Source: Thermoplasmatales archaeon
GTDB lineage: Archaea; Thermoplasmatota; Thermoplasmata; Thermoplasmatales; Thermoplasmataceae
DNA: 64,000 nucleotides
Assembly: GCA_026127925.1 (NCBI GenBank)
Contig: JAJSLM010000002.1
Location: 124,001 to 188,000 of the forward strand
Direction: 5' to 3'
Shown piece by piece: positions 24,574 to 25,209 of this stretch (positions within the stretch are counted from its first letter, which is position 1; each line of letters starts with the position of its first letter). Both the position numbers and the translations under genes were made by a program. The notes beneath the pieces are model-generated. The model was not told the origin of the DNA and did no database searches. It saw nothing but the letters and a program-made list of their open reading frames with translations.

Positions 24574-25209
24574 TCATAAAATTCTAAGTGAGAAGAAAAG
24601 GAATGTACAAAATCCGAACAAAACAAAAATTGAGTAGGTTCTGTTAGATCTGAATGGATTCTTCTTCCTAAAACCGAAGAAGGAATTTGAGTTAGCAAGG
24701 TGAAATATTGCACCCAGAATTAAACACGGTATCACGTAAACATTTTTGAGAAACACAATTGCAAATGCGGCATAAAATATATATTCGAAAATAAACGCAA
24801 TCCGTCCTTTTTTCCATAAACTCATGCCAATTTTTTTATCCCTCTTTCCAAAACCGAATAATGGTAGGTTTTTTGAATGCGTTAATGTATCAAGGGCCCA
24901 GTGTGATTCACATGCCATTAAAAATACAATAATCGCCAAGATCATTTTTGTTATAACTCCTATAAAAACTGAGATGCCTATTTCTATAACAAGAGAAAAG
25001 ATCAAAGAATGTGAATAAGGATAGTTTGAAAAATTAACTTTGCTTTGCAGAGGACTCTCAGGATTAATCGAAACCTTCTCAGCCCCGGTCAGAACCAAAA
25101 CAGGCTAGAGCAAATCTGGAAAACCGACTCTTAATAGCGGTACCCAGTTTGGAATCCAGGGGAAGAAATACATTAACAGGAACGCTATAGCAACGTGTCC
25201 TATGAACAT
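24574..25209 (-). pseudogene. Membrane protein of the DUF457/YdjM metal-dependent-hydrolase type, interrupted by an in-frame TAG
   Basis: Reading on the minus strand from ATG 25209, the frame gives 34 codons ending GFPDLL, then TAG (25105-25107), then continues without shift as PVLVLTGAEKVSINPES and a full membrane protein to 24574. It includes NYPYSHSL and ESHWALDTLTHSKNLPLFG. Family members carry the block DLLWPVLVLLGxE, so the TAG sits where Trp (TGG) is expected, a single G-to-A change. Everything downstream is intact: histidines of SHSL and SHWALD/TH, and four or five hydrophobic helices. Either a very recent pseudogene, a sequencing error, or read-through. A TTG at 25098 could start a shortened product lacking the first helix. 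Confidence 0.78.

Follow-up and report, generated by a model that had tools for sequence, protein, structure and literature searches.

A gene for an uncharacterised, YdjM-like membrane protein, interrupted by a single in-frame TAG codon, was found on the minus strand of the window, the whole stretch of 64,000 nucleotides that was analysed. The window belongs to contig 2 of an environmental archaeon's genome, which measures 1.73 Mb and is 98.33% complete. The gene is probably a nonsense pseudogene, unitary and young, whose YdjM-like membrane family has a patchy distribution. The interruption most likely reflects an ordinary loss of the gene in the fairly recent past and not an unusual reading of the code. 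Of the readings considered, the young nonsense pseudogene is the most likely and a base error comes second, whereas read-through of the codon is unlikely.

The interrupted gene and its sister copy

The whole gene, which encodes a YdjM-like integral membrane protein, extends over positions 24574..25209 (212 codons, both stops counted). Its minus-strand reading, from 25209 to 24574, is MFIGHVAIAF...FPDLL*PVLVLTG...SLRIL*. Its N-terminal part consists of codons 1-34 (25108..25209) and is followed by TAG as codon 35 (25105..25107, read from 25107 to 25105) and by a downstream part of 176 in-frame codons that ends with a normal stop at 24574 (24574..25104). Translation confirmed this arrangement of 34 codons, TAG and 176 codons, which had been described in an earlier note on the DNA that left the strand unstated. 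A mechanical list of open reading frames holds a single entry at 24574..25209, a 174-residue minus-strand ORF of the type that a gene caller would produce, starting at an internal TTG (24574..25098); there is no plus-strand ORF of at least 80 residues over this span in the same ORF listing. A search of the host genome revealed one copy of the interrupted gene and no back-up paralogue.

Only one of the 30 relatives searched belonged to the same genus. This genome (G001), the MAG Thermoplasmata archaeon YS3.bin24, carries on contig JAKAYB010000028.1 (C128) an uninterrupted 211-residue ORF with the same ATG and the same stop as the window gene, 76% identity to it and no indels inside the gene. 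The two orthologues also agree in length and are followed on the 3' side by the same two genes; the G001 contig ends shortly upstream. They differ at codon 35, which is TGG in the uninterrupted sister gene and TAG in the window. Comparison with sister strains had been suggested in the earlier note; in the same-genus genome G001, the gene is intact and has a Trp codon at the site of interruption. Since the sister ORF is intact over the same span, the frame of 34 plus 176 codons did not arise by chance. Beyond the TAG, neither a second stop nor an indel was detected in the window gene when it was compared with the sister gene.

For codons 1-34, the dN/dS between the window and G001 was 0.155, compared with 0.149 for codons 36-211, and the synonymous distance for the gene was approximately 0.9. 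The similarly low values before and after the TAG indicate that both halves were constrained as protein-coding sequence, as one unit, for most of their history. A dN/dS of approximately 0.15 is the fourth highest among 38 window genes and lies within their range. The presence of a single lesion and the still low dN/dS to the sister (0.15) count against a pseudogene; if the gene is a pseudogene, they imply that it is very young.

The same observations fit a base-calling or consensus error, in which case the organism would have TGG and an intact gene. One base is changed, there is no other lesion, dN/dS is 0.15 on both sides of the TAG, and among the sister ORFs with a match in the window (51 ORF rows, in which the interrupted locus is counted in two overlapping stretches) no other gene is clearly interrupted. 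An error of this kind is nonetheless rather unlikely. The change is a substitution and not an indel, whereas long-read homopolymer errors are typically indels. Moreover, an error at one base leaves unexplained the longer window branch, which is described below, and two further replacements in the window, D114N and G130S, at positions that are D in 77/80 and G in 78/80 homologue rows, respectively.

In the same comparison, a 95-residue sister frame was found to match the window in part at 2804-2977 on the minus strand (58 residues, 71%), with one stop inside. A conserved ORF of the same strand overlaps this match, which may represent a shadow frame.

A contig scan with an alignment as the query found 548 homologues and kept 80; an earlier contig scan with the window fragment as the query had returned no relative and no other record. 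The alignment used for counting consisted of 81 homologue rows, G001 among them; two of the 80 rows other than G001 (L076 and L156) are one and the same protein. Codon 35 was W in 76 of these 80 rows, F in two, C in one and R in one, and W in 77/81 alignment rows when G001 was included. These counts, together with the TGG of G001, bear out the earlier proposal that the TAG lies at a conserved Trp position and fit a change from TGG. The N-terminal motif was among the search patterns of the homologue scan, which biases the set at the N-terminus; G001, G235, G233 and the plasmid homologues were found independently of that pattern. The homologues begin with the same MFIGH-type N-terminus, and the first 34 codons thus belong to the gene. 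The statement that all family motifs were kept held only in part: H5 (80/81 rows) and D32 (81/81 rows) are retained in the N-terminal part, whereas the near-invariant D114 and G130 of the downstream part are N and S, respectively, in the window.

These conserved residues also bear on whether the 174-residue protein from the downstream TTG could be functional alone. The ORF is present, and constraint downstream of the TAG is similar to that upstream. However, such a protein would lack H5 and D32, both counted among the family's invariant His and Asp residues, and, as judged by the predicted fold, it would be without helix 1 and almost the whole of helix 2. In a search that selected for the N-terminal motif, no homologue starting in this way was found. 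A functional protein of this length is very unlikely, and the internal TTG probably does not mark a genuine gene start.

Reading of TAG in the host genome

If the TAG were read through, by programming or by a suppressor, some residue would be inserted at position 35 and the protein would be full-length. The 176 codons that stay open past the TAG and the low dN/dS on both sides of it are consistent with such decoding. So is the occurrence of pyrrolysine in some relatives within the Thermoplasmata, the Methanomassiliicoccales, which are reported to encode this amino acid (PMC4153887, PMC3941956); the window gene resembles that system in having an in-frame TAG in an archaeal gene.

The tRNA complement of the host genome was examined for an anticodon that could read TAG. 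The Rfam tRNA model identified 45 tRNAs, 43 of which, including the tRNA-Glu of the window, were named by ARAGORN without an intron setting. With one of three intron settings, the remaining two (L033 and L039), which received no name under the bacterial setting, became a tRNA-Met(CAT) and a tRNA-Tyr(GTA) with introns; the other two settings gave Ser(cga) and Asn(gtt), and none of the readings was CUA. Because tRNA-Trp was absent from the Rfam search, which left room for an intron-bearing tRNA, 34 tRNAs of the genome itself were used to build a covariance model. This model recovered all 45 tRNAs and a 46th, weak match, which on realignment with the filters off proved to be a tRNA-Trp(CCA) with a 67-base insertion, an intron, after the anticodon. 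The tRNA-Trp(CCA) gene (L174:51-190, equivalent to G000 C1:256150-256289) was overlooked by the Rfam tRNA model and was caught by the model built from the genome's own tRNAs. None of the 46 tRNA genes found in this 98.33% complete genome has a CUA anticodon, as judged with models that had no tRNA-Pyl as a positive control.

In a search for pyrrolysyl-tRNA synthetase, no match exceeded the cut-off of the PylS model (178.15 bits); the best two scored 26.5 and 19.4 bits, and the former sits in a 506-residue ORF that is also the best match to PF01409. One of 14 control genomes exceeded the cut-off, presumably that of Methanosarcina acetivorans, given its known PylS.

When ORFs of 90 residues or more were counted without overlaps, 15 of the 58 in the window ended in TAG. 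All 11 of the TAG-ended ORFs that have a sister orthologue share the position of their stop with it, and the sister stop is TAG in eight cases, TAA in two and TGA in one. As a common terminator that is conserved in position, TAG acts as a stop in this organism. Pyrrolysine decoding was rejected on these grounds: in contrast to the pyrrolysine-encoding Methanomassiliicoccales, the host has no PylS match over the cut-off and no CUA tRNA among those found, TAG is an ordinary stop, and the sister gene has a Trp codon at the site.

The suggestion that a suppressor tRNA or an amber-decoding system might be present was therefore not upheld by the 46 tRNAs, the intron-bearing tRNA-Trp(CCA) included, or by the PylS model. 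Together with the plain TGG of the sister gene, these results make programmed or suppressor read-through highly improbable. The chance is slighter still that a near-cognate tRNA, such as tRNA-Trp(CCA), naturally reads through the TAG, so that the codon is tolerated and a little full-length protein is made with no dedicated suppressor. Were the TAG decoded, this would be amber read-through with none of the machinery usually involved, but the evidence is against it.

Rate of change on the window branch

In a protein tree of 20 sequences (LG+G4), the window branch had a length of 0.228 and the sister branch a length of 0.063, a ratio of 3.6, and an equal split between the two was worse by a 2dlnL of 6.1 with the other branches fixed. 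Consistent with this difference, changes unique to the window outnumbered those unique to the sister with each of 15 outgroups in a simple relative-rate comparison, and the chi-square exceeded 3.84 in five of the 15. Six other window genes with usable same-family outgroups served as controls (a seventh listed gene had none). Their summed branches were approximately 0.17 for the window and 0.09 for the sister, or about 1.9 to 1, with the window branch longer in four genes and the sister branch longer in two. Since the controls show the same tendency in weaker form, part of the excess on the window branch may be genome-wide.

Departures from conserved columns were also counted by a leave-one-out procedure. 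Over the columns conserved in the archaeal sequences, the window departed at 6/58 and ranked third of 17 rows, with two intact homologues departing more. Over the whole family it departed at 2/22 and came first narrowly, with eight rows at 2/23. The apparent acceleration of the window branch, which is modest and cannot clearly be assigned to this gene alone, is therefore suggestive and no proof. It favours a real relaxation of constraint over a single miscalled base.

A neutral simulation in which indels were ignored gave a probability of no second stop of 0.33 after 30 substitutions and of 0.07 after 80 substitutions (0.127 per site). Set against the synonymous distance of approximately 0.9, and given that the gene has no second stop and no indel, these values indicate that any loss was recent.

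The earlier note had offered three explanations, very recent loss, a sequencing error and suppressor read-through. Recent loss is the best supported of these, by the intact sister gene, the longer window branch and the lack of a second lesion, and read-through is disfavoured. The window gene resembles known unitary nonsense pseudogenes of prokaryotic accessory genes in its one in-frame stop, its collinear intact orthologue, its single copy and its longer branch; it differs from them in having one lesion and a still low dN/dS. On the proposed course of events, in which the TAG base would be real in the organism, the Trp codon 35 of a 211-residue YdjM-like protein would have been converted to TAG by one base change. 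Translation would then stop after 34 residues, leaving helix 1 and most of helix 2 only, and with a product of this length no functional protein would be made. Selection on the gene, which would be a dispensable accessory gene, may have weakened before the stop arose, and the loss would be recent on the scale of the divergence from the sister.

The protein family and its apparent losses

A model of the sister protein was predicted from 42 sequences with high confidence (pLDDT 96.9, pTM 0.91) and is mostly helical, with short strands between the helices. The residues that are invariant in the 42-sequence set include H5, D32, E44, H67, H103, D107, H111 and E142; the invariance of H5 and H67 is biased, as both fall in patterns used for the homologue search. 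The PF04307 profile (YdjM inner membrane protein) was matched by 21 of the 42 family members at E <= 0.01. In contrast, the window fragment scored below the curated cut-off (19.7 versus 29 bits), and the sister protein had no match at E <= 0.01. The likeness to YdjM lies in a weak profile similarity, a helical membrane protein and conserved His and Asp residues. No relative of solved structure was found by sequence or, with Foldseek at E <= 0.001, by fold. The protein may be a membrane enzyme that uses its conserved His, Asp and Glu residues, perhaps with a metal. This family, that of L002:1501-2133 (minus strand), is widespread in Bacteria and Archaea and has a confident predicted fold. In a literature search at the level of titles and abstract openings, nothing on the interrupted gene itself came up.

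Within the class, the gene was present in four of the 300 genomes searched, the window's own included, a patchy distribution that fits an accessory gene able to be lost. Weak matches were seen in G022 (E 1.9e-5) and G003 (E 5.4e-4), both with stops inside. The Thermoplasmata copy L076 grouped in the protein tree with copies from Micrarchaeota MAGs (L077, L078 and L079; support 100), which would fit either an exchange of genes between these two lineages or contigs that were mis-binned.

A second interrupted copy was found in Cryobacterium sp. Y82 (L146; NZ_PJJJ01000022.1, from 1501), where TAA stands in place of this Trp codon. The copy was left out of the alignment because the stop at codon 35 cuts its frame off at 34 residues; further on, some sequence is missing and the 3' part continues in a different frame. 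The Cryobacterium copies L090 and L091, by contrast, are intact. With its own TAA, missing sequence and frame change, the Y82 copy is an independent pseudogene. TGG is one base away from both TAG and TGA, so that the coincidence of stops at the Trp codon is not very remarkable. On a plasmid of Spirosoma sp. KNUC1025 (L054; NZ_CP087141.1, from 501), a homologue was matched in two pieces, without an annotated gene, and its frame breaks after approximately 100 residues. The family seems to have been lost repeatedly, as in the Spirosoma and Cryobacterium copies. It is dispensable, given its presence in four of 300 genomes in the class and the independent break in Cryobacterium sp. Y82.

For annotation, these results mean that automated gene calling will yield a doubtful 174-residue protein with a TTG start at this locus, which should instead be marked as a probable pseudogene. 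With no solved relative found and with invariant His and Asp residues, the family deserves study more than does its broken copy.
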